Source: Pelagophyceae sp. CCMP2097 (taxonomy: Eukaryota > Sar > Pelagophyceae). From it: a DNA stretch of 35,763 nucleotides. The notes beneath the pieces are model-generated. The model did not search any database and was not told the DNA's origin. It saw nothing but the letters and a program-made list of their open reading frames with translations. Within the stretch, counting starts at the first letter, position 1; each line of letters begins with the position of its first letter. The DNA lies in the NCBI GenBank assembly GCA_026770575.1, contig MU657240.1:94199-129961 (forward strand), written 5' to 3'. The position numbers and the translations under genes were made by a program. This document shows, piece by piece, positions 1 to 26,800 of the stretch.

Positions 1-1034
1 GGCCACATGAAGCCCTCGGAGAACCAGTCCTTCCAGCCGTAGCGCAGGATCTCCGCCACCTTGGGCGCTCCGGATGCCGTCAGCTTGCCGTTGAAAACGA
101 ACTCGGTGAACATGGCCGCCGTCTGGAGCTTGCCCTTGTACTTGGAAACGACGAACTCGACGTCCTTGAGCGCCGCGATGAGCTCCGGGTACAGGTTGCG
201 CACGAGGCGCTCGCGCTCGTGGCGCGGCGACGACCGCCGCTCGACGAGCGCGTTCCTAGTGGAGACCGACGAGTCACGGGGCGGGGCCGCGTCTTCCAAC
301 GAAGACGAAATGAAAATCTTCAACGACGGCGGATCATTTTTCGACTTTTAAAGGGTGCTGACGCGCGCGCCACGACAAGGGCTAGGGCGTTTGCCAGAGA
401 CGGGGGCTCTCGAGTGGAGCAGAGCGACCCCCACGCGCCCCCTTCCAAAGAAGAAGAAACGAGTTTCTTCAACGACGGCACATCATTTTTCGACTTTCAA
501 ACGGCGCCGACGCGCGCGCCACGACAGGGTCTGGGGGCGTTCGTCAAGGAAGGATGCTCTCGAGTGGAGCAGAGCGACCCCCACGCGCCCCCTTCCGAAG
601 AAGAAGAAACGAGTTTCTTCAACAACGTTGGGTCCTTTTTTGACTTTCAAAGAGCTTCGACGCGCGCGCAACGACGGGGACGGGGGAGTTCACCGGAGAA
701 GGGCCGCCCAAGGATGCGCACGAGGAGCCCCTCTGACGAGACGAGGCGCCCCCTTCGAAAGAAGAAGAAACGAGTTTCTTCAACAAAGTCGCGTCCTTTT
801 GCGACTTTCAAAGGGGGCCGACGCCCGCGCCACGACCGGGCTTGGAGCGTTCACCGGGAAAGGGCCGCCCCGAGGGGCCGCACGCAAGGCGACTCACGCG
901 ATGTCGACGCGGTCCCGGCGCTTGAGCTTGTCCTTGCGCGCGACCTTCTCCGCGTAGTCAGGATCCGACCCCGACGAGTGCCGATCGCTGCCTCGTCTTT
1001 TCTTATGCGAAGACGCCTTGTCCCGGCGCCCCAT
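1..1034 (-). CDS. 5' end of a second copy of the GNAT-SET giant gene (runs off the left edge)
   Basis: The first two exons of a gene that matches the start of the giant gene at 10393-19749. Exon 1 is 898-1034 (137 bases, start ATG at 1034) and looks identical by eye to exon 1 of the other copy. Exon 2 begins at 255 and is cut at position 1; over 255 bases it has no indels and I saw one silent change. The donor (GTGAGT after 898) and acceptor (CTAG before 255) are kept. The encoded N-terminus is rich in Lys, Arg and Ser and then enters the helical region that precedes the GNAT fold. Whether the rest of the gene exists lies outside the window. The coding conservation suggests a recent duplicate or an allelic assembly artefact. 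Confidence 0.75.
256..897. repeat. Intronic tandem repeat, four units of about 148-161 bases (copy A)
   Basis: The single visible intron of the left-edge gene copy is filled by a tandem repeat. Each unit contains a purine-rich GAAGAAGAAACGAG stretch, then a run of T and GACTTTCAAAG. The GACTTT(C/T)AAA element recurs near 345, 493, 640 and 803. The corresponding intron at 19116-19612 has only three units and is 145 bases shorter. Confidence 0.85.
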
Positions 1035-1699: not shown

Positions 1700-4600
1700 T
1701 CAGATGGCGAGCTCTTTGGGTTTCTCCCAGGTGAACGCCACGTCGTCGCGCCCAAAGTGCCCGTAGCACGCCGTCTTCAACATGATGGGCCGCCGGAGCT
1801 GCAAGTCGCGCACGATGCAGCCGGGCCTGCGAACGAACGCTTGTTCAAGGCGCGACACGAATCTACCGCCTGCGATGCGTACGCACCGCAGATCGAAGTT
1901 CGCCCGTACGATCTCCACCAGCTCCGCGTCCGTCTTGCCTAGTCGGGCGCTCGCGGCGCGCCGACGCACGCGGAAGCGGCGCAGGCGGAGATGGTTTTGG
2001 GTATTTTTTCGTCTTCCGCGCCGACGCCGGCCCGTGACCCGACAGCGCCGGGGCCGTGCCGAACGAGTCGACGTGGATGGAGAGCGGGTACCTAGAGGGC
2101 GTTCTACAAGTTTCCGAGACGTTTTCTAGCCGCGCGTTCGATAAAGATGCCGTCGAAAAGGGGCCATCGAAAAGGGGCCGTCGGAGGGAGCGTCGATAAG
2201 GACCGTCTCGAGCCTTGTCGAGGGGGCGTTCTCACGGGTGCCTTGTCACAGGGACCTTGTCATGGGGACATTGTCACGGGAACCTTGCCACGAAGACCTT
2301 GCCACGGAGACCGAGCCACGGGGACCTTGTCATAGAGACCTCGTCATGGGAACCTTGTCGCTGGGACCTCGTCACGGAGACCTTGTCACAGCGACCTTGC
2401 CGCAGGGGCCTCGTCACGGAGACCTTGTCACGGCGACCTCGTCACAGCGACCTTGCCGCAGGGACCTCATCACGGGGACCTCGTCATGGAGACCTTGTGA
2501 CGGGACCTTATCATAGGGACCTCGTCACGGGGACCTCGTCACAAAGACCTTGTCGCAGCGACCTTGTCTCGGGGACCTTGCCACGGGAAGCTTGTCACAG
2601 CGACCTCGTCACGTGATCTTGTCACAGGGATCTTGCCGCGGGACCTTGCCACGGGGACCTTGCCACGGGGATCTTGTGGCCCGGGGACCTCGGACCGGCC
2701 ACTCTCGGGCCGAGAACCGACCGTCACCGGTCCGTCAACGGGACCGTCGTCGGGACCGCATACGGGCCTGTCTCGGAGACCGTCGTCGGGCCGTCTGCGG
2801 GACAGTCTCGGGGCCCGTGCAAAAGAACCGCTCACGGAACCGCCCAAAGGGACCGTCAAAGGGACCGTACAAGGGCGCGTATGCGAGCCCGTCTTCGAGA
2901 CAATTCGTCTACGGGGCAAAGTGGCCGTCGAATGGGCCCGTCCGTCGTAGGGGCCGGGAAAAGTGCAAGGGCCCGTATCGACTGCATCGGTGGGTGTACG
3001 AGGGACCGTCAAAGGCACCGTCCAATGGCCCGTCTAGGAGACCGTACGAAGGACCCTCTCGGGACCGTCTCGGGACGGTCAAAGGGCCGTATGAGGCGCC
3101 ATTTTCGGGACCGTTGGCCGGGCCGTACAAGGGCCCGTGGAGGGCCCATCAAAGGGGTCGTCTACGAGACAGTATAGGAGACCGTACGAGGGACGGTCTC
3201 AAGGACGGTCTCGAGACCGTTTCGGGACCGTACAAGGGCTCGTCTTCGGGTCCGAAGACGGCCCGAAGAAGGGCATGTAAAAGGGACCGTCGAAGGAGAC
3301 CGTCGAAGGACCGTCGAAGGGACCAACTAGGAGACTGTACGAGGGATCGTGTGAGAGACGGTCTCAGGACCGTCGAAGAGCCCGTATAGGAGACTGTCGA
3401 CGGACCGTCGACGGACCTTGGAAGGGACCTTCGAAGGGACCGTCTAGGAGAACGTCTAGGAGACCGTACGAGGGACCGTCTCGGGGCAGTAGAAAGGCCC
3501 GTACGAGGGGCCGTACGGGGCCCGTCAAAGGGTCCTTCTCAGGGACCGTATCGGAGTCCGTCTAGGGCCCCTCAAGAGGTCCGCGAAAGGGACCGTGCAA
3601 GGACCCGCAGAGACCGCGCAGGTGACCGTACACGGGGCCGTCGAATGGGACCGTCCAGGTTACCGTCGAAGGACCGTCAAAGGGACCGTCGACGGAGCCC
3701 GTCAAGGAGGCCGTACGAGGAGCCGTCTCATAGGCCGTCGAAGGGACCGTAAAAAGGACCGTACGAGGGGCCGTCTCCGGGACCGTAGAACGGCCCGTGC
3801 AAGGGACCGTTTAGGGGACCGTTTGTATTCAGGACCGTCTAGGAGGCCGTACGTCCAAGGGGCCGTCTCGGAGACCGTACGAGAGGCCGTACGAGGGACC
3901 GTCTCAGGACCGTCCGTATCCAGGATCGTTTACGAGGCTGTTGAAGGTCCGTCGAAGGGCCCGTCGAAGAACGTTCGAGGAGACGGTACAAGAGACCGTC
4001 TCAAGGACATTCGGGGAGACGGTACAAGAGACCGTACGAGGGACCGTCTCAAGGGCCGTCTCGGGACTGTCGAAGGGCCCGTCTTCGGGACCGTCGAATG
4101 GGACCGTACGAGGGACCGTCTCAAGGTCCGTCTCGGGACTGTTGAAGGGCCCGTATGAATGGCAGTCTTCAGGATCGTTCAAGGGACCGTATAAGGGACC
4201 GTACGAGGGATCGTATAGGGGACCGTCGAAGAATCGTACAAGGGACCGTACAAGGGTCCGTTGAGGTACAGGAGACCGTACGACGGTCTCGAGGACCGTC
4301 TCAAGACCGTCTCGGGGCCGTTTAAAAGCCCATCTTCGGGACCGTCGAACGGGTCTGTCGAATGGGACCGTCGAATGGGACCGTCGAAGACCGTACGAGG
4401 GGCCGTACGAGGGACCGTACCAGTGTCCTTTTTTGCCAGGACACCGCGTGGCAGCCGGCCCCGGAGGACCTCTCTGGCACGTTGGCCGTATTGTTTTATT
4501 CTCATCGCAGTGGCGTTTCAGCACAGACGCCGCTCCGCACGCGATGCCAATCGCATACGAGATTTGCACGCTGCACCGGTGGCACAGCTTCGCATGGACC

Positions 4601-7600
4601 AGCGACTTGGCCACCCACCGAGCCGCGTAGGCGCCGGAGCGGTCGACCTTGGTCACGTCCTTACCTGTGAATTTTCTGTGGGATTCGAGCCCCTCTTTGG
4701 CGCGCAGAGGCCGCGGAGACGCCTCGGACGCCGGCCCGCACCGGAGAAGGCGCCGCCGCCGTGCGCGCCCCAGCCTAGGTGCGTTTTCGACGGCGTTCGT
4801 CCGGTCATGTCGCCGCTCTCTGCACCGCTCTTTTCTCAGCTCGCGCTACTTGACGCCTCGCGCTACCCCTCGCGCGCCACGCTCCCCGGCCATGCCACCG
4901 CCCAGACGGACGCGGGCGCTTGCCGCCGTACGTGTCGACGACGATCTTGCGGCCCGTGATGCCCGCGTCGCCTACCGATGGTGATTACGACGGTGCCTGG
5001 CTGGTCGTTGGTCGTACATCCTTCAATCATCCTTCAATGCATGAAAGTATCCCATCTCGGCACGCACCAAAGCCCCCGAAGGCGCTCTTCGGCCACCGGC
5101 GCGCACGGCACAGATGCACCCGACGTCTCAGATGCACCCGACGTCTCCTCGCTCCAGGGTCGGTCTCAAGTTTCCCGACGGTGGTTTTCCGACTCGACGC
5201 GTTTGCGCGCCGTGCGGCCCACCGATGACAAATCTCCCGCTGGGGTTCAAATGGTATATCGTGTCAGAGTCCAGGTATTTCTGCGGGATGACCGCGCGCA
5301 CGACCTAGCCAAGCGGGGTTCACAAAGTGCGAAGAAGTTTGCAGCGAATCGTAGAGGGCCCCGGGGCAGAGTCCTTGTCAGAGCTCTTTGAATCGCCCGG
5401 CGCGCCCTTGCCATCGTCGAGCGAGGTCCCGAGGACCCACGGGGTCCCACAGGCCCGATGACCGGATTCGAAAGGCGTTTGTTCAAGACGCTGCGTGTCA
5501 CGTGTTCCATCAGCCCCTCGCGGATCTGCTCCTGCGTCGCGCCCTCGTCGTGCTGCGCCGAGATGCAGACCGTGTGCACGCGCGTCGGGACGGGGCGGCC
5601 GTTTTCGAGGGAGTATTCGCCTACCGAGGCTGATGACGACTGCGACAGGTCGTTTTAGCAACACCCGGCAACACTTTTTGGGACGCCCGCGAAGCAGGTC
5701 GCGCGTCTCTTTCGAGGCCTCGCGAGGCGTGGGCGCCTTTGCGGGGCGGCGGCCGCATAGGGCCGTCTGGCGGCCGGTCCGACGGTCTTCCGAGGAGCAT
5801 GAGATGGAAGTCGTCACTGTGGACCGTTTAGAAACCACCGCCGAGGATCAATATAGGACCCGGTCGGGCTGTTTACGGGCCTTTTGAGGCCTCTCGAGGG
5901 CCGCCGATTGTCCCGTCTCGGGGCCGCGTAGGGGCCGTCGGGAACCGCGGGTCCGTAGTTCATCGAGGAACCCATCGTAGAATCCGGGCGGACGAGGGCC
6001 CGGGGCCCGACTCGATTCCAGACAAGTCCGTCTCGAGTCCGCATGGTCCTTGGCGAGGCCGCAGAGGGTCCGTCGAGGGCGGGACAGTCTCCCGACCGTC
6101 GAGGACCCGGGGGCCGTCTCGCTTGCAGAGGGATCCGCATCGGAAACGCGCGACGCCGTTCCGTAGAGGGTCCCTCGTATCAGGGTCCCTTTCGGGTCCC
6201 TCTTGGGCCGCCATCGGGCCGCATCGGGGCCTTTCGAGGATCCGCCTCCGTTCTCGACCCGTCTCCGGACCGTGGAAGAATCCGGCCGGATCTCGGAAAT
6301 GGGCCGGTTTGGGCAATCGACCCGTCTCGTAAATCGACCCGTCTCGTAAATCGGGCGTTCCAAGCCCCCTCTCTCGCCTTGGACGCCGGCCCCGACACGT
6401 CACGAGCGTCTTGCCGTCGGGCCGGAGCCAGTCGAGAATTTTCGTCTTGCGGACTTGGGCGAGTCGCGACGCGAGCCTGCGCGGCCGTCGGGCGGTAAGA
6501 AAGGCGGCATTTTACGACGGCGCCTTTCTCGAATCGGCGAGTGTCCCAGAAGCGTTGCAAAGAGGCGGCCGGCGCTGCAGTCGTGGCGGCAGTCGCCACC
6601 TTTTCGAATTTCCAGTCTCGAGCTTGGCCAACGACGCGGCCTCCGCGCTGCGTCGCCAGGACGTGCGACAGCGGCATCAACGACGCCTCGGCCTCGTCCG
6701 TGGCGTAGCCGAAGACGACGGACTGGTCGCCTAAAGAAGCGTGCGCAAAGGCAATTGTCCCCAGAGGCCAAACCTCCGAAGTCGCCAAAACGTCCGAAGT
6801 CGAATGCAACAAGGGCCCTCGAAGGCACGGGGTCCGCGGCACGTCCCGGTATGACTCGAGGCGCCGCTCGGGACCGCAGACGGCACGCTGCCGGACCCCG
6901 TACGGCCCGACTGAGGTGTGCCGCGGTCAAAGCGCTCCCCGTCTCGAGGGGCCTCCTGGAGCACCCTGCAGAGGGGCCATCCAGCCTCCGTCCAGAGGGC
7001 CTGCCTCGAGGGACCTTTGAGTGAGGCCCCGATTCCTCTGCCGCCGCTCGGTGCGCGCGCGACGCCCTCCAGAGGCGTCGTCCGGAGGGGCCGTGTCAAT
7101 CTGCCGTCTTCCGTTTTCCGGGCGTGCAGAGTTTCAGCCTCGAGGGGCCGTAGAGCGCGAACGCCTCGAGGGGCCGTGTCGAAGAGCCGTCGACCGCGTC
7201 CCTTCTCTGGGGGCCGTCTCTCGGGGCCGTCTCGAGTTGCGCCCCAGGAGATGGTGCCAAAGAGGAGCCGTGCTGGACAACAAAAAGCGCCGGCCGTTTG
7301 GGACGCCTCGGACTGTCGCAGACCCAGCCGTAGGACCCGCTCGAGGGCCGCCTCAAGGACCGTCTTCGGGACCGTCGCAAGTGCAGTCTCAAGGCCGCCT
7401 CGAGGGCCGCCTTCAGGACCGTCTGAGGGGTCCGGAGAGGACCCGGCATCAGGCCGGCACGCCCCTGGTATCCGGCCCCGGCAAAGAAGACCCGGCACCA
7501 AGACCCGGCACCGGGCGCCGCCTCGAAGCGCCCTTGGTAGCGGGGTACTACGGCTCCGGTCCGAGGTTCCCACGGCCAGACGAGAGGGTCCCGGGACACG

Positions 7601-10392: not shown

Positions 10393-13300
10393 TCAAGGCG
10401 GGTGCTGTTCAAGAAGAGACGATTTCAGCTCGATTTGTCTCTCCGTGGAAAGATTCCCGCAAAAGACGGTCGACGCAGCAGCGTGCTCGCGCGCGGCGAG
10501 CCAGCGGTTCCAGCGCCGGATCGCGCGGAGCTCGCCGAGTAGCATCGGGTCCGGCACCAACTCGTCGCCGCCGGCCGCGGCCTCGGGGAGCGGCGCCGAC
10601 CGTTCGACTGTCGCGTACTTCCCAGTGCGCGACCATCGCTTCTTCCGGCCGCTCTGCTGGCGCAGGTAGTCGACGGCGACGAAGAACTCGTCGTCGAAGC
10701 GCTTCTCGGGCAGCGAGTCCTTGAGCGTCTTGCCTAGGAACGGAGGGCACATCGTCAGGCGCGTGTGCGAACTTTTCGAGTCCGTGTAACGTGTAGAGTC
10801 TCGAAGAGACTCGTTTGATGACGCCGCCGGGAACGGAGCGCGACGACGCCTATCGCGGTAGGACTCAGACGAATCGAAAACACGGATTGTCCACGACGAT
10901 GTTTCCCGGGACGCCGGATGCGGACCGGCGACGTAGAGCGGCGGCAGCGGCTTCTTGGCCGCGGCGCGCTTCTGGTTCATCTTCTCAAAGGCGTTGGCGA
11001 CTTTGATCATGACCGCGCTAAGAAAGGAGAATCAGACGTTTGAGTGTCGTTCAAACAGCAGTGGCCTCACCGCTTGCCGGCGCCGTGGAACTTGAACGCG
11101 GCCAGCGACGGGCAAATGTTGAAGAAGCGCTTCGTCTTCGTGGCCTTGCCGACGAGCATCGTCGCGCAGTTGAACATCGCCGCGGTCTGCGTCGGCGAGG
11201 GTCGAGTGAACGATGTGAGGTGTGCTTCGAAAAGTGGGGTCTCGAACATGGTGACTCGACACGACGACCAAAGGAAGAGCTTCCGGGACGCCGCGCACGT
11301 GCCTCGACTTCCGTCTCGCACGTGCCGAGTCGGAATCGGCTGCCGAACTTGAGGCCTCCGCCCGGGATGGTCAGTCGCGCCACGAAGCGCCCCTCGACGC
11401 ATTGGACGCCGAAGAAGCGGTCCTGCGCACAACACAAGAATCATGGATGATCAGAGACGCACACGACGTCGAAGAAGAAGACAGAAAACGACAGGCCGGG
11501 TCCAAAGAACGCACCATGTCCGTCGCCTCGGCGAACGCGTGCTCGAGCGAGTAGAGGCACTCGAGCGGGTCGCGCGGGAAGTTGTAGACGTAGTTCGGCT
11601 TGAGGCCCTTCGCGACGCGGTGCTCGGCGTGCAGCCGCTCCCGCTCCTCGCGGTGCAGCGCCGTCGCCAGCGCGTCTGGGCCGAGCGAGTTGCCGACTCC
11701 TGTCACCACTCCGGTGCCTTTTCGGCCTCTGCGGACCCAACGCGAATCAGCAGGCGCGATGCGCTTCTTGGAGAGGTGGCCGTCCTTGGCGTGGAACGTG
11801 TAGGTGAAGGAGTGAGAGTTCCGCTTCTTCTGCACTTTCACCTCGACGCCGTAGAAGCCGTAGAACTCTCTCTGCAGCGCGGCGGGGTACGGCGACGCCG
11901 CGCTCGTCTTGGCGAAGCGCAGGTGCTTGAAGAGGCCGTAGCAGAAGCCTAGGATGAAACGCAGGGTCGAAACATAAATGTCACGTGTGAGAATGCCACC
12001 TCCTCCCAAAACAACAAACCACCGCGTTCCCCCGAAGAGAAGACCATCCTCTCTCGACGTGCGTCCTTTCTCGGCCTTCCAAAAGTTTGGGCAGAGGTTG
12101 AATCGACGACGCTGTCTTCGGACGCGCGGCGCTGGCGAACTTCTCCAGGTCGTTGATGGACAGGCCGCCGAGCGTGTGCGCGATGATCGGGAACTTCTCC
12201 ATCGCCTTGAGCAAGGCGGGGAGTCGGCGCCTATTTTGTTCTCGTCTTTGCCGCGACCCTCGGACAACGTTTGGAAAAGGCGACTCCTCGACGAAACCAA
12301 CGAAAGACACGACTGAGAATATGCTCGAGGAAAGACTCTGGCGCGGCGTACAACGCGGCGTGCGCCCAGACGCAGTCGGGCGTGAAGTCATCCGAGGGGC
12401 AAGCGGGTGCCTCTGTGCCCGCAGGAATGCGCGACGGCACCGGCACCAGCGGCTTGAACCTAGCGTCGCACGCGGTTACATCAAGAGGGAGGAGCAAGCA
12501 AGGACGTGTTCGAAACGTAATTGCTTTGGAACCGAAGCGGGCCAAACGTCGGGATCTCCGGCCAGACGCTCTGTCGGCGTGTGAAGCGCGACGCGACGGG
12601 CAGGCCCTCGCGGAAGTTGACCACGTCCTCCGCCTCGAGCCGCTCGAACTGGCTCACGAGGTCCTCCGTCGCCGCGCTCGTCGCGCCTATAGGAAAAATA
12701 GGATACACGTAAAAGGGACATCGGACGTCTCAATTTTGTCTCCACTCGATCTCTCCTCTCGATGCGCGCGCAAAGACACTGGTGGACGTGCGCTTCGCGA
12801 GCATCCGCAGCCACTTGGCGCGAAGGTGCTTGCCGATGTCGCCTTTGGAGACCTTGATCGCCTTGAGGCGGCGCCGCAGCTCTCGCTTGGTCTTCTTGCT
12901 CGCGCAGAGCCGCTCGAGCTCGGGCTTGAGCTGCCGCAGCTTGATCATGAGCTACGGACGAGTTGCTCGACGATGATGCCAGGGAGGGGGTTCTCTCGAG
13001 ACGCTGAATTCAAAGGTTACCTTGGCCCGGCGCCGAGACCACTTGTCCTGGTAGAAGATCTGCTTCGCAGGCTGAGCCCGCATTGGAATCTGGGGGTGGA
13101 AGGCCTTGCCGCTCGGCAAAGTCACTCGAGTTCCATTGGTCTTCACCCGCGGCTTCGGCACCTACACAAGATTCATCGGCATTCAAGACGAAAACAATTC
13201 AACGTCGACAGAAAAAAAGTCGTTCGCACCACGTTCGCCTCGCGCCAGGCTGCGTGTCGCATCGCCGCCTGTGACAAAGATCCACAAACCGACGCAACAA

Positions 13301-16300
13301 AAGATCAAAAGAAGAAAACGCACCGAGAGGCGCCGCTGCCCGTCCTCGTCGGAAACGTCGGAGCCGTCGGGGTCGACGGCGCGCTTGCCGAGCCAGCCGA
13401 CGATGCGGCCGCGCTGCCCGTCCGCCGGCTTCTCGGCCTCGAGCGAGCGCAGGAAGTGCCGCCGGCGAATGTCGGCGAACGGGTTCTCCGACGATGCCGC
13501 CGTCCGCTCCTGGATGCCCTCGCGCAAAGCGATGCGCCGCGCGAGCTGGTCGTCGTTCAGCTGGCCCACGCAGCCGAGCTTGCGCAGGTGCTCGCGGTGG
13601 CCGTCGAGGCACTTCGTGCGGCGCTCCAGGCCGAGGAGCACAGAGAAGTGGACCTTGGAGCCGTGCTCGGCGCTGCACTCGAGGCAGTAGAGAACGCGAC
13701 CGGCCGGGAGGCCGCCGGGGAAGCCGACGCAGTACGAGTGGCAGTACTTGTCGCAGGACCGGTCCTTCTTCTTGTCCGCATTGCAACGGAAGAGCAGCGC
13801 CTGCTCGCACGAGTCGTGGCAGACCTCGCAGCGCGGCCGCACTTCAATGGGCTGCGCCTCGACNNNNNNNNNNNNNNNNNNNNNNNNNNNNNNNNNNNNN
13901 NNNNNNNNNNNNNNNNNNNNNNNNNNNNNNNNNNNNNNNNNNNNNNNNNNNNNNNNNNNNNNNNNNNNNNNNNNNNNNNNNNNNNNNNNNNNNNNNNNNN
14001 NNNNNNNNNNNNNNNNNNNNNNNNNNNNNNNNNNNNNNNNNNNNNNNNNNNNNNNNNNNNNNNNNNNNNNNNNNNNNNNNNNNNNNNNNNNNNNNNNNNN
14101 NNNNNNNNNNNNNNNNNNNNNNNNNNNNNNNNNNNNNNNNNNNNNNNNNNNNNNNNNNNNNNNNNNNNNNNNNNNNNNNNNNNNNNNNNNNNNNNNNNNN
14201 NNNNNNNNNNNNNNNNNNNNNNNNNNNNNNNNNNNNNNNNNNNNNNNNNNNNNNNNNNNNNNNNNNNNNNNNNNNNNNNNNNNNNNNNNNNNNNNNNNNN
14301 NNNNNNNNNNNNNNNNNNNNNNNNNNNNNNNNNNNNNNNNNNNNNNNNNNNNNNNNNNNNNNNNNNNNNNNNNNNNNNNNNNNNNNNNNNNNNNNNNNNN
14401 NNNNNNNNNNNNNNNNNNNNNNNNNNNNNNNNNNNNNNNNNNNNNNNNNNNNNNNNNNNNNNNNNNNNNNNNNNNNNNNNNNNNNNNNNNNNNNNNNNNN
14501 NNNNNNNNNNNNNNNNNNNNNNNNNNNNNNNNNNNNNNNNNNNNNNNNNNNNNNNNNNNNNNNNNNNNNNNNNNNNNNNNNNNNNNNNNNNNNNNNNNNN
14601 NNNNNNNNNNNNNNNNNNNNNNNNNNNNNNNNNNNNNNNNNNNNNNNNNNNNNNNNNNNNNNNNNNNNNNNNNNNNNNNNNNNNNNNNNNNNNNNNNNNN
14701 NNNNNNNNNNNNNNNNNNNNNNNNNNNNNNNNNNCGTCGCAGCGCCTCCTTGGCCAGGTCCTTGAGGATGCGGCTCCGCTTGCAGTCGCGGATGAACGCC
14801 TCGAGGTTCACGTCGCCTGGCAGCGCCAGCGCCACGCGCCGGTTGAGCCGCGGCGCCTCGACCGCCCGAAGCTGCGCCGACGGCTGCGCGGTGGCCGTGC
14901 GCGGAGAGCTGCTCGTCGCCGCGGTCGGCAGAGGCCCTCGAGGAACTTTGGCGGCGTCGAGGGGCGCCGCGTACTTGGCCGCGAGGTGTGCCGGTCTCAG
15001 GACCTCGAGGGCGCGCTGGAGCTCGGCGACTGTCGCAAAGTGCGGCTGCGCGCGGCAGATGAACCACTCGTGGCCCTGCACCGTCTCGCGCGCGAAGCCG
15101 AGCGCCGCGAGGACGCGCTGCGCCGCCGGGACGTCGAGGTGCGCCTTGACGTTCGGGTTCGACAACTTGAGCCAGCGGTACGTCGGCTCCTCCGGGTACG
15201 CGTAGACGCACTTGAGCACCATGATCAGCGCCTCGCGCGACTGCGACGAGAGCCATTGCAGGCCGAGTGTCGTCGAGACCTATTTTCAATTTTGAGCTTA
15301 GGAGGCGTGTTCGACCAAAAGGCACGTTCACGTACCGCCGGGGCCTGCGACGCGACGACCGGTGCTGCCTCTAGCGCCACTATCGGTGCAGCGTCGCGAG
15401 CAGGTCGCTGCGAGTCGCCTCCCGAACTGCTCGTCGTCCCTTGCCGCTTCTTCCGTCCGTCTTGCGCGGCCCGCGACCGCTTCTCTTGCCGCGGCGGCTC
15501 GGCATCGGCGTCGTCGCGCTGGTCGTCGACGAGCACCAGCTCCAGGCTCGGCTGCGTCTTGGCGGCCTCGTTGCACGACCTAGAAGTTTCCATTGTGCGG
15601 GCTGTCGTCAGTTGTCGGACATTCTCGAGGGCCCTTTTTTCAAAGGCGCCTCTTTTCGACGCTGCGTCGCGCGGCTCGAGTCGCGCGGCGAATCGGGCCG
15701 GTCGCGCTGCCGGCGCGTCGACGTGCTGTTCCGACCTGTGGTGAACATTGTGAAGAAGGGACCACGTGCGGACAACGACGTTCGACTCACGACTGCGGGT
15801 CTCGCGTCTCGACGTCGTCCAGCGCCAGCGAGGCCAGCGGTGGCGGTGACCTATATCTCGTCGGGGTCGCGACAACGGCCGTTTCGCCAAACACACGTTT
15901 CAAACACGGTCAGCTCACCTCGTCGCGTCCTCGGAGCGGCCGAAGCGCACCGGCTGCGCGTCGTCAAGCTGCGCGTCGTCGAGTAGCATGGCGTCCAGCT
16001 GCGCGGCCTCTAGCTTCTTCTTGGCCTTTCCCCGCTTCCTCTTGGCCTTCTTGCGCCATTCCGTTTCGGCGCGCTGCGCGAAGAGCGCCACCTTCCACGC
16101 ATTCTGCCGGGCGGTGGCGCCGATGAAGCCGGTGCAGTCGCGGCGGCCGCAGAAGCACGGCGGGAACGAGCCCTCAAACGTCGTCAGGCAGATGGGCTCT
16201 TGGGCGTAGTTCAGTGTGAGCCAGGCGCCGCTCGGGATGTCCTTTGTCGCGACCAGGAAGACGCGCTGCACGCCGTCAATCTCGAACCTATAAAGAGTGG

Positions 16301-19300
16301 TCACTAGGTTGAGCAGGGAGCACCACGGCATAGTTGGACACGGAGCGCGCGCCACTCGAGCGTCCTATGCCAACCAGAGTCAATGTGCAGCAAAACGTTC
16401 GATGATTGATACTGTTCGTCGTCAGAGACAGGTGCGCTTACGTGTTCGGGTGCGTGCAGGCGTTGTTCGCGAACCGCGCCAGCGAGCCCGATTCCTCGGC
16501 GTCAATGCACATCTTCTTGCCCTCGAGCCAGACCGTGTAGCGCGTCGGCGGCCGCTTCAGCCGCTCGGCCTCCGTGACGCACTCGCCCAGGTACTCGACG
16601 ACGACATCGCCCCGTGACATGGTGGCCGTAGTCTTCAGGCCGAAGCCCGCGCCCTTCCTGGCCTTGTCCACGCTCAGCACCGGCCTAGGGTGGCAATGTC
16701 GGTCGACGGCGCTCCATAATCACCCCGCCTCTCGCGCTCGACGGCCTCGCTATTGGGCCATGCCCGACGCCCCCACGCCTCTGATGCCGCTCCCGACGCG
16801 GTCTGTGACGACGGTTTGGGTTTTCCAACCAGAAATCGCCGACTCTGATCCCGGCCAGTCCCGCGGCAGCGAGCCGGCGAACTTCTGGCGCCACCAGCTC
16901 GGCTTGTTGCCCGTGATGGCGTCGTCCTAGAGGGAGGGCGGTGAGGCTTCGCGCATCGTCCCTTTCCAAGGAAATATTGTCGAGCCTCTCGTTCGCACGC
17001 AGAGCCGCCGCACGGGCGTCCATGTGGGGCTCCCTTGATCACGTATGAGCTCAGGAAGAGGCCATAAGAGTCCATGGGATTCCGTATGAGCCCCATGCTC
17101 TTAGTTCGGGCGATTTTGTTTCCGTCGACAGGCCGTCTACGGACCGTCGAGGGGTCGCATCGGACCATGCAGAGGGCGCCTCGGACCTTCGAGGGGCCAT
17201 GTAGGACCGTCGAGGCGCCGAAAAGGGTCTTTGAGACCCCCGTCGGATCATTGGGGGGCATGAGACCGTCTGGGGGCAGTTTTCGGACCGTCTACGGACA
17301 ATCAATCACGTGGGTACATCGGATATTTTTAAGCCCGTAGAAGACCGTCGAGATTCCGCGTAGGACCGTCGAGGCCCACGCAGGACCGTGGGAGGGTGCG
17401 CATGGGACCGTCTAGGGTCACAAAAGGACCGTAGAGGACCGTAGAGGACCGTAAAGGGTGCCAAAAGGACTGACCGTAGAGGGGTCGTATGGGACCGCCG
17501 AGGGGCCACATATAGGACCGTCGAGGGGCCGCATCGCACCGTCTAGGCGTCGTCCTGGCGTCCCGAATTGTATATCTGACAGAAATATTTTGGAACTTCT
17601 CCTCACGACTGTCGCACAAAGGAATCAGTTGAAAGACGCGGCGTGCGCGCGGCCGGCCGGTCCAGGAGCTCAAATGGCTTGCCGCCGTCGCCGAGGTAGC
17701 CGCTGTAGGCCTCCGCGGCCTCGCGCAGGCCGTCGGAGCGCTGCGAGAAGAGCAGCGTCGGCTCCTTTGTCGTGCCGTCCGCCTTGGGCTTCTTGCCGCA
17801 GTTGTCGAGTACGACGCGCAGCTGGTCCTTGAACTGCTCCCGGTCGAGCCGGCCGCCCTTGTCGGCGAGGAAGATGCCCATGCCCACCAGGTTGTTGTCG
17901 TCCTCGAAGGCCTTGGTCGCGTAGCTGGGGAATCGAATGTCAGTGGGCGACGCCAAGGGGCTCAAGACGAGCTCGTGAAACGGGCACCGTCCCACTCTTC
18001 ACTCGTCGAGTATGAAGGATCTCTCGCCATTGGATGCATCTCTCGTTTGCGGTCTCAAAGTTGTGCGGACGCGGCCGTGAAACCCGAGCGAGGCCTGGTA
18101 TAGCATGCCGAGCCGCGTCGGCTTCGACGAGTCCTTGGTGGCGCAGCGCCGGAGGCCGACGTGCTCCCAGACCTTGACCGCGGCCCGCGTCGCGCTGAGC
18201 ACGATGGCCTCGACGCCGAGGCGGCGGCCAAGCGTGATGATCAGGTCGAGCCTGTTCCAGAGTCGGTGAGTGAGGATCGACCGGGAGGTGGGCGAGAGTG
18301 TGGCACATAGCTCTTCCCGCTCTGCACGCAGTACCGCTCGCCCTCTTTTCGAAAACAAGACGGATTTGTGGAATTGCGCGGATCGGGCGCCGGTGCGGAC
18401 TCGAAGTGCAGCAGGCCGTGGCCGCGCGCCTCGGGCATCGTGACGGCCGCGTCGACGTAGAAGATGATCGGGTGCTCCTGTGATGCGCAAAGGTGCGAGG
18501 ATGCCGGCAATCGGTGGCGGTCGTCCCGCAAAAGCTTCAGAATGTAAAGAGACGCACCTCCGACAGCTCGACCTTGCCCTTCAACTCGAGGCGCTTCGGC
18601 AGGACGACGGCCTGGAAGACGACGGCCGACAGCTTGTGCAAGACCTACATACTCACGATCAAAACGAGAGTGAAGAGAGGCAAAGTTGAATTGCGTCGTT
18701 GCAAACTACGGTCACCGTACGCACCAGCGAGAGGAGCAGCTTGAGCTCTTCCGCCGTGCCGTCGATGATCTGCATGATGTGGCTCTCCCAGGTAAACGGC
18801 GTGGTCGGCAGCGGGCCGTAGTCCTCCTCGTCGTCCTCGTTGCGCCGCGTCCACTCCTCTGGCCACATGAAGCCCTCGGAGAACCAGTCCTTCCAGCCGT
18901 AGCGCAGGATCTCCGCCACCTTGGGCGCTCCGGATGCCGTCAGCTTGCCGTTGAAAACGAACTCGGTGAACATGGCCGCCGTCTGGAGCTTGCCCTTGTA
19001 CTTGGAAACGACAAACTCGACGTCCTTGAGCGCCGCGATGAGCTCCGGGTACAGGTTGCGCACGAGGCGCTCGCGCTCGTGGCGCGGCGACGACCGCCGC
19101 TCGACGAGCGCGTTCCTAGCAGGGAGCGATGGGTCACGTTTCGAGGCGGGGCCGCGTGTTCCAACGACGATGCAATGAAAATCTTCAACGACGGCGGGCC
19201 ATTTTTCGACTTTCAAAGGGCGCCGACGGGTGCGCCACGACGAGTGATGGGGCCTTCGTCGGGAAATGACGCTCTCGAGTGGAGAGAGATCTCTCCATGA

Positions 19301-19749
19301 CCCCCCTTCCAAAGAAGAAGAAACGAGTTGCTTCAACAACGTCGGGTCTTTTTTCGACTTTCAAAGGGCCTCGACGCGCGCGCCACGACGGGGCTTTGGG
19401 CGTTCATCGAGGAAGGGCCGTCCCGAGGGGGCCGCACGAGGAGCCCCCCCGACGAGTCGAGGCGCCCCCTTCCGAAGAAGAAGAAACGAGTTTCTTCAAC
19501 GACGTCAGGTCCTTTTTCGACTTTCAAAGGGGTCGACGCCCGCGCCACGACCGGGCTTGGGGCGTTCACCGGGAAAGGGCCGCCCCGAGGGGGGGCACGC
19601 AAGGCGACTCACGCGATGTCGACGCGGTCCCGGCGCTTGAGCTTGTCCTTGCGCGCGACCTTCTCCGCGTAGTCAGGATCCGACCCCGACGAGTGCCGAT
19701 CGCTGCCTCGTCTTTTCTTATGCGAAGACGCCTTGTCCCGGCGCCCCAT
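10393..19749 (-). CDS. Giant multidomain chromatin protein: GNAT-SET-PUB-PHD-AP2
   Basis: Phase-consistent exons, in transcript order: 19613-19749, 18725-19115, 18558-18644, 18401-18477, 18003-18251, 17618-17924, 16844-16926, 16442-16684, 15919-16287, 15791-15850, 15336-15579, 14735-15279, gap, 13324-13863, 13021-13161, 12780-12951, 12506-12686, 12337-12459, 12124-12230, 11515-11948, 11309-11422, 11071-11186, 10926-11017, 10393-10733. That is about 1,717 residues plus whatever the gap holds. A basic N-terminus is followed by a GNAT-like fold (about 206-275), SET (445-552), post-SET CxCx4C (569-576) and PUB (about 766-845). After the gap come a PHD-like finger, a basic helical stretch and an AP2 domain. 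By family knowledge SET and GNAT modify lysines, PHD binds histone tails, PUB binds p97/Cdc48 and AP2 binds DNA. The combined role is inference. The weakest join is the 691-base repeat-filled intron at 16927-17617; two genes split there remain possible. The ATG at 19749 is conserved in the copy at 1034. Confidence 0.75.
11071..11422 (-). other. AP2-type DNA-binding domain within the giant gene
   Basis: Exons 11309-11422 and 11071-11186 join in phase 0. The first gives FFGVQCVEGRFVARLTIPG and RLGTCETE. The second gives TAAMFNCATMLVGKATKTKRFFN. This follows the AP2 layout: YRGV, GRFVA-strand, a LGTF-turn with TEEEAA, an alpha helix, then K-N-F. The exon before (11515-11948) holds a weaker strand pattern around FYGVEVKVQ and SFTYTFHAKDG that could be a degenerate relative; that is a guess. 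AP2 domains in algae and apicomplexans bind DNA. Confidence 0.6.
13324..13863 (-). other. PHD-like zinc finger within the giant gene
   Basis: Directly downstream of the gap the exon encodes CEVC, a cysteine at FRC, then SCDKYCHSYC and, 14 residues on, CLEC. This fits the C2-C2-HC-C2 spacing of a PHD finger with a lengthened loop. PHD fingers read histone H3 tails. After it come a basic helical segment and an acidic GSDVSDEDG stretch before the donor at 13324. The true N-terminal border may lie in the gap. Confidence 0.65.
13864..14734. other. Assembly gap of 871 N
   Basis: A run of unknown bases inside the giant gene between the PUB and PHD regions. Adding 545, 871 and 540 bases gives 1956, divisible by three. 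If the gap size is real, the two flanks could be one 652-codon exon. Confidence 1.
14735..15279 (-). other. PUB domain within the giant gene
   Basis: The exon encodes ALIMVLKCVYAYPEEPTYRWLKLSNPNV, shown here in pieces: ALIMVLKCVYAY, then PEEPTYRW, then LKLSNPNV. A second half follows with AQRVLAALGF and a terminal strand HEWFICR. This matches the PUB/PUG fold, which in PNGase, UBXN6 and HOIP binds the C-terminal tail of p97/VCP (Cdc48). The domain is followed by an Ala/Pro linker and a short segment, DVNLEAFIRDCKRSRILKDL. The exon runs into the assembly gap still in frame. Confidence 0.75.
15919..16684 (-). other. SET and post-SET lysine methyltransferase domain within the giant gene
   Basis: Two exons (16442-16684 and 15919-16287) encode the domain. 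Visible motifs are the SET N-flank KGAGFGL, the strand VVVEYLGECV, RYTVWL, CIDAEESGSLARFANN, then ATKDIPSGAWLTLNY and the post-SET zinc motif CFCGRRDC. SET enzymes transfer a methyl group from S-adenosylmethionine to lysine. The usual NHSCxPN signature reads NNACTHPN here, with His replaced by Asn and one extra residue, so activity may be altered. The intron at 16288-16441 falls just after this motif. A Lys/Arg-rich tail follows (KKAKRKRGKAKKK), a likely nuclear localisation signal. Confidence 0.9.
16927..17617. repeat. Giant-gene intron with GGACCGTCGAGGGGCC minisatellite
   Basis: About 17125-17560 consists of degenerate units around GGACCGTCGAGGGGCC, 12-24 bases apart, in an intron bounded by TTT|GTGCGA and CCTCTAG. 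It separates the GNAT-containing part from the SET part of the gene. If two genes exist instead of one, this would be their intergenic region. Confidence 0.75.
18003..18644 (-). other. GNAT acetyltransferase-like domain within the giant gene
   Basis: Exons 3-5 join to give a beta strand and helix around VDAAVTMPEARGHGLLHF, then LGRRLGVEAIVLSAT and AAVKVWEHVGLR. This matches the GNAT pattern of an acetyl-CoA loop (family Q/RxxGxG/A, here RGHG) followed by a strand and the A..xYxxxGF helix. The intron between exons 4 and 5 uses the donor GTCCGC; splicing there gives the normal spacing between loop and strand. The loop lacks one of the usual glycines, so catalytic activity is uncertain. The substrate is unknown; a histone or other nuclear protein is inferred from the neighbouring domains. 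Confidence 0.6.
19116..19612. repeat. Intronic tandem repeat, three units of about 150-160 bases (copy B)
   Basis: First intron of the giant gene. The GACTTTCAAAG element recurs near 19208, 19357 and 19517. Sequence and order match the four-unit array in the left-edge copy, with one unit fewer. Confidence 0.85.
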
Positions 19750-21555: not shown

Positions 21556-23274
21556 CTAGTCGCCCTCGTCGGTTGCGTCGGCGGCGAGCACCTCCGTCGT
21601 CGAGAAGCCAATCTTCCCATCGCTTCCCCCAACCACGAGGATCTGTGGCCCTTGCACAGCGTCGATTCGAATGGCTGCACACGCACCTCGCCCCGTCTGC
21701 ATGGTCGGCCCGGGCGAAAACTCCAGCGCCGCCACGTCGAGGACCTCGGTCGTGGCCCATGGCGTGTTTGCCGAGTCAACCCCGCCGATGATAAGGACGT
21801 GCTGCGCGTCGACGGGCACGGCCGCGCATGCATCGCGACTCGAGCTCATCGATGGGCCGGGCGCGAACGCCATGGTCCGGACATCGAGGATCTCCGTCGT
21901 ATTCAAACATCCTGAATTCGAATTACCACCGGCCACCATGATGCGGTGCTCGTCGAGCGAGACGGCCGCGCACCCGCTGCGTGGAGCGGCCATGGCGGGC
22001 CCATGCGCAAAGGCCATCGTGTCCAGGCTGAGGATCTCCGTGCTCGACAGTCGAAGCTCGCCGTCGATACCGCCGACGACGAGGATCCTGCGAGCGTCGA
22101 GTGCGACAGCAGCACAAAAGGCCCGTGGCGATTGCATGTTCGGCCCCGGCGTGACCGTGAGCATAGAGAGGTGGAAGATCTCCGTCGTGTTCAAAGAAGA
22201 AGCACCATCGCAGCCGCCCACCACGAGCACGCGGTCCGCGTCGACGAGGACGGCCGCACAGCAAAATCGTCCCACGCGCATGTTCGGCCCGGCCGTCCAG
22301 GCCATCGTCCGCGCGTCGAGCACCTCCGTCGATTCTAAATCAGACCCACTCGAAGAACCGCCAAACGCAAACACGCGCCCGCCGGCGGACACGGAGGCGC
22401 ATCCAGCACGTCCTGCGCCCATATCCGGCCCCGGCTGGAACGCGGCAGAGTCGGTCCATTTCCGCGCGCCGAACGCGGCCGTCTCGAGGCCAAAGTAATC
22501 CAGCTCCTCCATCATGGATTCTTGCGCGGCCTCGGACAATTCACCGATACTCTTGCGCGTGAGCGCAGCGTCGAGGTCGCGGAGGAAGTCGAGGATCATT
22601 CGGAACCGCTCGCCGTCGCGGTCGATGAAGATGGACCCGTCCTCTGGATTGGACTGCAGCATCGCAGCGCAGCGCCCAAACATGCGGCCGAGCATCGAGT
22701 CCTCGACCTTTGTCAGTACGGCGCGCGACGTTTCAAATCGCACGCCACCGACGTTGAGCTTGATCACGCCGTCGGGCGGCGGCGTCGCTGCGCGCATGCG
22801 CGCCTTTTCGCCGTCCACCTCGGCGCGGTCTCGCTCGAATGCCGCGCGCTTCTCCTTGAGCCTGGCTTGTCCGCGCGCGAGCTTCTCGTCCACTTGCCGC
22901 GTCATGGCCGCGCGGTGGTCTTGGAGCGCCTGCCGGTCGCTCGCGAGCAGCACCTGAGATGGACCCTCGCGTCGAGACCTCGTGACGGATGAAAGACGCC
23001 GGTGCCGCACCCTCTCGGCGTGGAACGCGCGCTCGAGGGCGTCGATCGCCGAGGCGTGCGCGTTGCTCGTGCGCTGGACGACGTCGAACTCCGCGGCCAG
23101 GTCGCCCGACGACGCCTCGCGTCGAGAGAACAAGGTCCATGAATTGACCCGACGCCGGTGCCGCACGATTTCGGCTTGGAAGGCGCGGTCGAGGGCGTCG
23201 ATCGCCGAGGCGCGCGCGCTGCTCGTGCGCCGGACGACGTCGAACGCCGAGACCAGGTTGCCCGACGAGGCCAT
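21556..23274 (-). CDS. T1/BTB-kelch repeat protein, single exon
   Basis: An uninterrupted 572-residue ORF. Residues about 1-105 hold two tandem copies of a 52-residue segment with the core ASAIDAL(D/E)RAF. A Lys/Arg/Glu-rich coiled coil follows at about 120-165. A KCTD-type T1/BTB domain begins at KLNVGGVRFET and includes IFIDRDGERFRMILDFLRD. The C-terminal half has six kelch blades, each with VxGG and TTEI/STEV plus GPxM elements, which would close a beta-propeller. BTB-kelch proteins often act as substrate adaptors for cullin-3 ubiquitin ligases; that role is inferred from the family. The lack of introns contrasts with all neighbours and could mean retrogene origin. It is divergently arranged with the SPAG17-like gene. 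Confidence 0.92.
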   Translation of the reverse strand: MASSGNLVSAFDVVRRTSSARASAIDALDRAFQAEIVRHRRRVNSWTLFSRREASSGDLAAEFDVVQRTSNAHASAIDALERAFHAERVRHRRLSSVTRSRREGPSQVLLASDRQALQDHRAAMTRQVDEKLARGQARLKEKRAAFERDRAEVDGEKARMRAATPPPDGVIKLNVGGVRFETSRAVLTKVEDSMLGRMFGRCAAMLQSNPEDGSIFIDRDGERFRMILDFLRDLDAALTRKSIGELSEAAQESMMEELDYFGLETAAFGARKWTDSAAFQPGPDMGAGRAGCASVSAGGRVFAFGGSSSGSDLESTEVLDARTMAWTAGPNMRVGRFCCAAVLVDADRVLVVGGCDGASSLNTTEIFHLSMLTVTPGPNMQSPRAFCAAVALDARRILVVGGIDGELRLSSTEILSLDTMAFAHGPAMAAPRSGCAAVSLDEHRIMVAGGNSNSGCLNTTEILDVRTMAFAPGPSMSSSRDACAAVPVDAQHVLIIGGVDSANTPWATTEVLDVAALEFSPGPTMQTGRGACAAIRIDAVQGPQILVVGGSDGKIGFSTTEVLAADATDEGD

Positions 23275-23827
23275 GGTCGAAGACGTTTGTTGTTCTTCGA
23301 TGAATTTTCGACTCGGAAGAGCCGAAAAATTGCCGAAACTTCAAGACTCTATAGAGCTCGGAATTGATTCGTACACCAATTTATTGGGCCAGCCCCAGGG
23401 TGGATTTTAAGCAAGCAACCTCCTCGTATCTCCAGAGTGACACGCCCGGCCGCGCGCGAGGCCGGGGGGCGCCCTTGGCCTCGGCGCCGTGGGCTCCTCA
23501 AACCACGGCGAGGATATTTTGCACTTTGGGTATTTGTAGGATTTTTGGTATTTTAAGGTTTTTCCACGTGGCTGTGAAGAGGGTAGGGTTGCCCCGAGGT
23601 CGCGGGCGGGCGGAGGGCGGCGCCCATTCAAAGGCGCTGCGGCCACATAATCGCATTTTCGGCGAAGGCGTTAACGGAGAGTTGGGACGGCGTCGTCGGA
23701 GGACCGATCGGATCGTCGGAGGACCGTCCCCGAAACGAGCCGTGCCGGCGCCGAGACCGCGAACGCCTCGAGCCTGCGTTTCGGCGCGGTCGTTTGACGG
23801 CCGGGGCTGCGACACGGCCCAGGTACG
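23275..23827. promoter_or_regulatory. Divergent promoter region between the kelch and SPAG17-like genes
   Basis: 553 bases between two start codons pointing away from each other. A T-rich patch at about 23513-23565 (containing TATTTTGCACTTTGGGTATTTG) and an AT-rich stretch at about 23280-23385 stand out from the GC-rich surroundings. These are candidate core promoter elements for the two directions. No classical TATA box is certain. Confidence 0.45.
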
Positions 23828-26800
23828 ATGGCGAAAACGCCAAAGCCTGCCCCGCCGCCGCGCGCCGACCTCCGCAAAGCCCTCGTCGTCCGAGTCGACT
23901 GCGCCGGCGCCGGCGCCGACGCTGCGCTGGACGCCGCGCTGCGGCGCCTCGGCGAGCTTGACGAGGGAACGGCGGCCGGCGGCTTAAAGGCCGGCGCCGT
24001 TTCGGCGGCGCGCGTTTTGGTGGTGACGCGCGACGAGCTGACCACGCTCGGCAATTCGCTCAAGGCGGAGAAACAGGGCCGTTCGGACAAATATGTCCAT
24101 TCCGGATCGGCAAAGGAAGTCGTCCTGGCGGCCGCCCTCCAGCGCCGAATCCTCCTCGAATCCGACGGAGGCCAGACCATCTTCATCTTGCGCGACTACC
24201 CGTCGACTGTCGCAGAGGCGGCGGAGCTGCTGCAACGCGCCGACTCCGCGGGGAGGTCGGAGCCCGCGCTGGACGCCGTCGTGACCGTGGTGCGTCTTCC
24301 CCTTGCGCGCGCGGGCGGGCCTTTGAAAGCACCCTTTGGAAAGCACCCTTTGGAAAGCACCCTTTGGAAAGCACCCTTTGGAAAGCACCCTTTGGAAAGC
24401 ACCCTTTGGAAAGCACCCTTTGGAAAGCCCCGGAGACTGGCCCTTTGCAAGGCCGTTTGCAAGGCCCCGTGCGAGGCCCCGTGCGCGGTCTTTGAAAGGC
24501 ACCTCGGGCGGGCCGTCTCTCGCCTTTGCAATTGGGTATTGGCTCCCTTTGCAAGACCCCCGAGGCATGTTGTCCCTAGCTTGTTTGAAATCCGCCCTGT
24601 GTGGACCCATCGAAAGACCCTCGAAGGGGCCTTTGAAGGACCCTCGCCACGGCTCCTCCGAGACGGCGTCTTCGAATGTCCCTCGACGGCCCTCGAGATC
24701 CTCTTCGAAAGAGATGGCCCCTTGCGCGCTCTGCGAAGGACTCCTGCCCCGAGGTACAATCCCGAGACTTTCCCGAGAGACTTTCGGAAGTGCACGCAAC
24801 GGCCCTTTTCGCAACGGCCCTTTGAAGGAGTCGGCCCCGTCCGAGGTGGCCCTCTCGAGACGGCCCTCGAGACGGCCCCGTTGAACGGCCCTCGAGACGG
24901 CCCCTCTCACGACGGCCCTGTTCGAAAGCCCCATCTTCAGGCCCTCTCGAAACACCGTCCCGAAACACCGTTTCGGCCGACCATGGCCGCTTGTAGGTCT
25001 CGAGCGGCTCTGAGGGTGGCGGCGTGACGTGGCCTGCGCCGCGGCGGCCGTGCTTGGCCTTTGACTTTTCGCCGCTCGCACAAGACCTGATGCCCCCGGG
25101 CTTTGAAGACGCTGCCAAGGGCAAGCCCAAAGCAAAAGACGCGTTAGCGCCCCGCGCGCAGAACGTCCACCTCGACATCGCAAGAGCGAAGCGCGCGGCC
25201 GCGGCCGCCGCGGAGCAGCGTGCGTTCGAAGCGCCACCCGCGGCGCAAGGCGTCTTCTCGACGACGCCCTCGACGACATTGTCGACGACTGAAAAGCAAG
25301 GTGCCGACGCCGCGCCGCCTCTCGTCCGAACTTTATTCTCGGCGGCTCGCAAGGAAAAAGGCGCCTGGGCGGACCTCACTTTTTCAACGTGCCCAGTCGA
25401 TGCGTTATCAAAGGAAGAAGACTATGCAGAAACCGTCCTCCGCAACCTCCGCTCTGCCCTCGAAACCCTCGCCGGAGCAAAGTGCGCCTTTAAGCACTGG
25501 GTCGCCGGCTTGGAGGCGGTGCCCGTGCCCGTCGAAGGCAAAGGAGTCGCTAAGGCCACCGCAGAGGCCGCGGCGGTGGTGCGGGCGAATTTAGGAGATT
25601 ACACGGAAATGCCGCCCTGGGCTTCGCACGCCGTCCGCGCCGACTACGCAGCGCTGGCGTCGAGCGTCGAGGCGGCGTGGCACTCACCCGGTTTACTTTT
25701 ATACTGTGCCGTGGAAGCCGTGTGCGCGCGCGCCGAGGCCGCCGAGGCGAGCACGCCCGCGTCGCCGCCGCTGGACCGGCTTCGGCAGCGGAGCCGCGGC
25801 CTGCAGCGGTTGGGGGGGGCGGGCTTTGACGTTTCGCGCGCAGACTTGCACACCAAGTCGACCAAGTCGGGTTTCCCGCCGGCCGGCGGCGCGGCGCTGT
25901 CCGCAGTGGTCACCGTGGACCACGCCGATTCGCTCGGCCTGCGCCTCGCGCGCGCCGAGCTTTTACGGGAGGCCGGAGGGCTGCGTCTGACTGCGAAGGA
26001 CGAAGACGCCCCTGCACCCGAGGCGGTCTCAGCACTCGTCCTGGCTCTCGAGCGCGCCGCTTTCCGCCAGATGCAACAGCCCCGCGTCGTCGGCCGCGGC
26101 GCGCTGCCGCCGGGCGGGGCGACGCTGCCGCCGGAGAAGCGCGGCGTGTGTCACCGGCGCCGGCGGTCGGAAAACCCGGACCTGTCGCGGCTCCAAACTC
26201 CGGCTCCGAGGAGACGGCCCCGAGGAGACGGCCCCGAGGAGACGACTTCTTGAGACGGCCCCTTTCGACGGCCGTTCGAAACGGCGCCTTGAGACGGCCC
26301 CTCGAGAGGCTCGAACGGTCGCTGAGGCGGTCGCTTGGGCGGTCCCTTGGACGGTTCCTTTGGACAGTTCCTTGGAGGGTCCCTCGACGGGCCCTCTGTG
26401 ACCGTCGCTTTGAATGCGGCCCCAAAGACGGTCCCTTGGACGGTCACTCGGCTTTCGGCCCCTCGAATCTCTGCCATGTGTCCCCTGGGCGGGCCCTCGG
26501 ACGGTCGCTTGGACGGACCCTCGCACCGCTCTCAAACAATATGGCATCCCTGTTCGAGGAACGATGAAGGGGCCTCGTCAGGCCCGAACAAGGGCCCGAA
26601 CAGTCGCCTCTGGCAAGGAACCCTGCGTGGGGACTTGATAGGGCCCTTGAAAGAGGCCTTTGCAAGTGCGGAGGCCTTGTAAGTGACCGCCAAAGAGGCC
26701 GAAGCAGGGGCCCGTCCGGAGACACTGTCACGACGGGGCTCTTTTCAGAGCAACCTCTTCAAAGGAACGTCGTCACGCGGGACGTCGTCGAAGTGATGTC

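Follow-up and report, generated by a model that had tools for sequence, protein, structure and literature searches.

The AP2-SET gene and its domains

We analysed a 35,763-nucleotide (nt) stretch of DNA, here called the window, from Pelagophyceae sp. CCMP2097, an Arctic stramenopile alga whose light-harvesting genes are consistent with the red lineage. The window carries on its minus strand a gene, which we name the AP2-SET gene, running from a start ATG at 19749 to the end of a stop codon at 10393. The model was curated from frame-by-frame translation, a simple gene model and comparison with genomic copies. The results showed 24 exons and 23 introns forming one open frame of 5898 nt, except that 871 of these are unsequenced bases (N) in a gap at 13864-14734. 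The gene is real, and the frame consistency that the first-pass annotation had claimed for its joins was borne out, although the introns number 23 and not 22. GC donors occur at introns 6, 9, 16 and 21, a high share (4 of 23), with GT in their place in one copy at intron 6, two at intron 16 and one at intron 21. Five additional residues between exons 23 and 24 of the public model P0005 fit a possible extra 15-nt exon at 10849-10835, which a computed gene model also contained.

The spliced product was searched against Pfam. The SET domain (exons 8-10, 15919-16684, with a 12-nt microexon, exon 9, at 16353-16364) was matched at an E value of 1.1e-12 and 48.7 bits, over a curated cut-off of 22.4. 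The post-SET cysteines in the same exons align with NSD3, and the sequence firmly places the domain as NSD/ASH1-like with a post-SET. The position of NHSC, which we take to be the motif of active SET enzymes, reads NNAC, as it does in the copies found by genome search. Pfam gave no AWS match to the spliced product up to an E value of 10, and PWWP was likewise unmatched. No zinc-finger family was among the matches obtained, which also lacked the C2H2 array of the PRDM family.

The first-pass annotation had joined SET to GNAT, PUB, PHD and AP2 domains in one polypeptide. SET passed its cut-off; the profile hidden Markov models for PUB, AP2 and GNAT gave scores below the Pfam cut-off or no match, PHD was recognised by its Cys pattern only, and AP2 was supported by profile-profile and fold comparison, described below. 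Exon 1 (19613-19749) encodes the ATG, retained in many copies but not all, and a basic N-terminus. Exons 2-6 (17651-19115) encode a GNAT-like region with weak matches, the best being IDM1_C (E 0.009) and Acetyltransf_1 (E 0.036), each in 4/5 copies and both below cut-off. Its putative acetyl-CoA loop reads RGHGLL and, ending in Leu, departs from Q/R-x-x-G-x-G/A, presumably the GNAT motif for this loop.

Exon 7 (16844-16926) stands before SET, and exons 11-12 (15336-15850) encode a charged linker after it. Exon 13 (13324-15279) extends from the PUB-like to the PHD-like part and is broken by the gap. The PUB-like domain (approximately 15034-15234) had Pfam E values of 5.5e-7 and 1.6e-5 (29.9 and 25.2 bits), below the curated cut-off of 34.3. 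The PHD-like Cys/His cluster (13675-13830), read by eye, follows the order C4HC3, which we take to be the PHD finger pattern, although nine residues, a long interval, separate its third Cys from its fourth; Pfam gave no PHD match for the spliced product or the isolated piece. A WW-like pattern of two Trp residues was likewise found by eye in the stretch where the window has its gap, and Pfam had no WW match for this piece of 40 amino acids. Against PDB sequences, the GNAT-like and WW/PHD pieces gave chance-level matches only. The GNAT and PHD assignments, read from sequence, are plausible but not statistically secure. Further downstream, exons 14-19 (12124-13268) include a fast-changing exon 15 (13161-13021), exon 20 (11515-11948) encodes a variable module, exon 21 (11303-11422) encodes the hypervariable sheet part of an AP2-like domain, exon 22 (11071-11186) its helix and a conserved tail, and exons 23-24 (10393-11017) the C-terminus and stop.

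Related copies and the single reading frame

We searched the genome of the alga using each half of the protein as a query, which gave 138 and 135 exon-by-exon matches. Because exon 2 matched at 19 places and the PHD-like part of exon 13 at 21 (window included; our own reading of the match tables), we estimate that the genome holds about 20 copies of the family. They lie on both strands, mainly on contigs C20 and C77, with others on C57, C126, C337, C459, C232 and C4. The start of one neighbouring copy occupies window positions 1-1034 on the minus strand and leaves the window leftwards into N. Copies A to F were assembled from their loci, with A, B and C covering the whole gene and D, E and F part of it, and further copies were aligned piecewise. 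Homology between the copies extends from roughly 10.0 to 20.0 kb in the window, slightly further upstream in copy A.

Some 20 copies in both orientations, with homology that stops within a few hundred bases of the gene, would suit a large mobile element whose variable domain recognises its insertion sites. We regard this as very improbable, since terminal inverted repeats sought between the ends were not found, Pfam matched no transposase, integrase or polymerase family in the spliced product, the gene has 23 introns, and the copies are clustered on few contigs. A 57% match at C27:374982 was considered as a possible ancestor and rejected as a degenerate fragment. The surrounding region, G000:C27:371500-378000, holds a degenerate relic of the AP2-SET family, adjoined by apparent WD repeats and a hAT-type transposase end (by eye).

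The copies were then used to assess the exon boundaries. The copies share the exon order of the window gene, and splice dinucleotides were kept more often than expected by chance, in 349/357 donor and 335/347 acceptor comparisons (copy C77_195900b dropped, intron 6 acceptor uncounted). As controls, GT/GC and AG elsewhere in the same introns were kept in 3715/4801 and 1091/1525 comparisons, and within exons in 9709/10837 and 3348/4136. Insertions and deletions (indels) were multiples of three in 148/253 cases in exons and 99/649 in introns, and in exons 14-19 alone in 16/32 versus 28/129. For the counts of indels and silent sites, copies at less than 0.6 or more than 1.5 of an exon's length were dropped. 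The copy pairs behind the indel, silent-site, omega and identity analyses are related and not independent, so that their P values and averages serve as a rough guide only.

Two stretches had been singled out as places where the polypeptide might end or restart, namely 16927-17617 and the unsequenced gap, and both joins held. The first falls within intron 6 (16927-17650, GC donor), which measures about 95-98 nt in 4/6 copies (B to E) and is lengthened in the window copy and in copies A and F by a minisatellite insert; its acceptor is AG in 7/7 sequences of a separate comparison. Arrays similar to the one in intron 6, long and with 14-base and 12-base units, lie at window positions 2185-4360 and 26700-30750. 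At the gap, copy A is free of N and carries the PUB-like, WW-like and PHD-like parts within one open exon of 670 codons, indicating that the 871 N conceal coding sequence. The WW-like motif is legible in copies A to F, with stops or frameshifts in that exon in B to F. The connection from SET to the PUB-like domain through introns 10, 11 and 12 (68, 211 and 56 nt), described earlier as keeping frame, was confirmed.

Public models of the C-terminal part point to a division of the gene. All 14 are from CCMP2097; 11 share a start at one Met position in exon 19, while the remaining three are partial and start just after it, P0005 on the window's own contig being among the 14. These starts argue against a single gene, and would be expected if two adjacent genes had been duplicated as a unit, one for a SET/PUB/PHD-like protein (exons 1-18) and the other for a separate AP2-like protein (exons 19-24). 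We consider two genes rather unlikely. Donor and acceptor of the intron preceding exon 19 are each kept in 19/19 comparisons, and exon 19 continues the frame of exon 18, for which reason one gene is preferred; exons 14-18 of the window copy contain no terminating stop. Moreover, some of the public models have mis-spliced parts (P0009 and P0013 run on through intron 20), so transcripts are not necessarily their basis. Comparison of the approximately 20 copies thus leaves a single predicted open frame with SET, PUB-like and AP2-like domains well supported.

The AP2-like domain and its variable, predicted DNA-contact face

The identity of the AP2-like domain was assessed by profile and fold. Pfam AP2 matched 0/14 copies, and a whole-genome AP2 search found eight places, none of them within the AP2-SET family. 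A profile comparison with AP2 was in register (hhalign, P 1.5e-5, probability 79.6; 14 of the 16 aligned copies used), and the best structural match was of the AtERF1 type, with apparently three strands and a helix in the same register and 27% identity. Together, these comparisons support a predicted AP2-like fold. AtERF1 and other plant AP2 domains appear to share this arrangement, but the Pfam model misses the CCMP2097 domain, in which YRG becomes FFG, RAYD becomes AAMYN or AAMFN, and the strand residues are hypervariable. When the two variable parts were searched against PDB sequences and the AP2-like part against Pfam, no match rose above chance level. Exon 20 did not match the AP2 profile, and the two variable parts did not match each other. 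Folding exon 20 from one sequence gave a model too poor to keep, with a predicted local distance difference test (pLDDT) score of 36.9; in the fold comparison of the exon 20 part nothing stood out in the VIA list, giving no evidence of a new fold.

To describe the variation, protein alignments were made with frame-broken copies excluded, keeping 18/23 for exon 20 and 16/23 for exons 21-22. The second strand of the AP2-like domain alternates between variable and conserved positions (AtERF1 numbering, our own register). Among 16 copies, positions 154, 156, 158, 160 and 162 show 6, 6, 6, 7 and 4 residues, and positions 155, 157, 159, 161 and 163 show 2, 2, 4, 1 and 1; position 151, with 7 residues, breaks the pattern. 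Positions 154, 160 and 162 of AtERF1 are, we assume, DNA contacts. A passage of an earlier study discusses Arg150, Arg152, Arg170 and Trp172 as binding the GCC-box (PMC3602543). At these seven positions the nonsynonymous rate (dN) was 0.80 and the synonymous rate (dS) 0.79, while the twelve core-facing positions had a dN of 0.077 and a dS of 0.265 (omega 0.29). This clustered family with hypervariable residues at the predicted DNA contacts goes beyond the first reading of the locus and is the more interesting fact.

The variable blocks were next set beside their surroundings. Mean pairwise identity, gaps included, was 0.63 in the exon 20 sheet, 0.56 in the exon 20 loop and 0.63 in the AP2 sheet, compared with 0.81 and 0.83 in introns 19 and 20 and 0.83-0.85 in the helices. 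Silent fourfold sites differed in 224/791 comparisons in the AP2 sheet versus 168/2328 in the AP2 helix and tail. From these differences, the blocks are old, fast-mutating, or both. Exon 15 also changes faster than its adjacent introns (61-70% identity in pairwise windows; frame broken in three copies) and is possibly a third variable segment. One copy pair is near-identical across exon 20 but divergent in the AP2 sheet, a sign of exchange between copies.

Two sets of results weigh against a family selected for DNA recognition. First, omega at the seven contact positions is about 1 and not above, and no block clearly exceeds 1 (AP2 sheet 0.89, bootstrap 0.64-1.26; exon 20 sheet 0.55, one near-duplicate copy omitted). 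Second, the sequenced exons of the window copy and the copy at C77:149-160 kb are free of lesions, but every other copy followed over most exons has a lesion, be it a stop, a frameshift or the loss of a splice site. Some short partial copies have no lesion, and an assembly error could lie behind some of the lesions seen. With the raised silent divergence in the blocks, these results are what would be expected of a mostly decaying family, its variable blocks reflecting relaxed constraint, local hypermutation or age. We judge such an origin unlikely. Core-facing positions within the same block are conserved, and exon 20 keeps its frame in 17/20 copies at length differences of -18 to +27, the other three being +1, -130 and +624. 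In addition, identity between copies is lower in the blocks than in introns 19 and 20, a result not expected from relaxed constraint by itself.

NG86 omega between the window copy and copies A to F, where covered, was 0.04-0.24 for SET, 0.14-0.35 for the PHD-like part, 0.20-0.31 for exon 2, 0.10-0.59 for exons 3-5, 0.29-1.25 for PUB, 0.62-1.24 for exons 21-22 and 0.76-1.05 for exons 23-24. As the core positions are conserved, the pattern argues for selection on the shape of the domain, the contact face being either free to vary or under pressure to do so. It looks as if the family were being retargeted to new DNA sequences.

Elsewhere in the window, an open frame of 594 amino acids with BTB and Kelch repeats (21556-23340, minus strand) represents an ordinary neighbour gene. 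A piece of the C-terminal domain of S-adenosylmethionine synthetase, probably a fragment or exon, lies in a minisatellite-rich stretch at 3904-4845 (minus strand). This enzyme produces the cofactor of SET domains; we claim no link between the piece and the AP2-SET gene.

Known relatives and a proposed role

To place the gene among known systems, we searched sequence databases and the literature. No homologue of exon 13 was found at an E value of 0.001 or better among 7,995 scored candidates of the protein database, limited to sequences between 0.55 and 1.75 query lengths, so that longer models would escape. The GNAT-like region was found in four proteins there, three on short JGI contigs (P0001-P0003) and one a CCMP2097 model. 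In the literature searched, which lay outside most subscription journals, no paper combined SET domain, AP2 and pelagophyte, and none contained four of the terms SET domain, AP2 domain, PUB domain, PHD finger and alga; for PUB with SET, no PUB domain appeared among the matches listed. On first reading, no protein family was known to combine these domains. The exact set was indeed not met in these searches, but excerpts of one study already describe Archaeplastida class III-3 Trithorax-type proteins of the green lineage with SET and PHD, and AP2 as an extra domain (PMC5725981). SET, PHD and AP2 thus occur within one class there; PHD precedes SET, and the excerpts do not mention GNAT, PUB, WW or a variable-contact family (PMC5725981).

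Among solved structures, NSD, ASH1L and SETD2 are nearest in their SET and post-SET sequence. The CCMP2097 protein differs from them in having no Pfam match to AWS or PWWP, in reading NNAC for NHSC, and in its other neighbouring domains. The likeness to IDM1-type histone acetyltransferases consists of the weak N-terminal IDM1_C match, which is far below cut-off, with a loop motif that ends in Leu and not in Gly/Ala. PRDM9, as portrayed in published abstracts, resembles the family in uniting a SET-type methyltransferase and a fast-changing DNA-binding domain with varying DNA-contact residues in one protein. It uses C2H2 zinc fingers, whereas the CCMP2097 family has an AP2-like domain and an NSD/ASH1-like SET with post-SET, numbers about 20 copies, and further carries GNAT-like, PUB-like, WW-like and PHD-like parts. 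The KRAB zinc-finger repertoire likewise consists of clustered, expanding paralogues with divergent DNA contacts; the CCMP2097 proteins differ in carrying an enzyme in the same chain and in their DNA-binding fold.

From these features we propose a chromatin protein of about 1,980 residues in which a GNAT-like region, SET with post-SET, and PUB-like, WW-like and PHD-like parts precede a hypervariable module and the AP2-like domain. This last domain, probably together with the module of exon 20, would pick a DNA site, and SET would then methylate a lysine at that site or on nearby nucleosomes. The lysine would most likely belong to a histone, and similarity suggests that it may be H3K36. Anchoring would fall to the WW-like and PHD-like parts. 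A DNA-targeted enzyme that writes lysine marks, as suggested on first reading, fits this proposal; recruitment of Cdc48/p97, suggested with it, depends on the sub-threshold PUB match and may be a function of the PUB-like part. Being alike in their enzymatic parts and unlike at the predicted DNA-contact face, the copies could together supply writers for many different sites, with selection maintaining their divergence as it does in PRDM9 or the KRAB zinc-finger proteins. A family of DNA-targeted lysine methyltransferases with a diversifying DNA-recognition face, a PRDM9-like logic built on AP2, is the reading we favour over the others, at about even odds.

The process served might be the placing of recombination sites, the silencing of repeats or the control of fast-changing genes, which would all fit. 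SET-domain genes of CCMP2097, not necessarily members of the AP2-SET family, are reported to respond to salinity in a study that also names public RNA-seq sets of the strain, SRP284677-SRP284681 (PMC9133084). More tentatively, and with doubt on balance, the family may be an independent, AP2-based counterpart of PRDM9 or of the KRAB zinc-finger repertoire, in which clustered, DNA-addressed SET writers, their contact face selected to diverge and shuffled by exchange, set recombination sites or silence fast-changing repeats. If so, the plan seen in PRDM9, where a fast-changing DNA-binding domain directs a methyltransferase to its sites, would have arisen separately in algae on another DNA-binding fold. 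Such repertoires could then be tested for a role in recombination sites, repeat silencing or something else, using a strain that grows in culture and has both a genome and public RNA-seq data.

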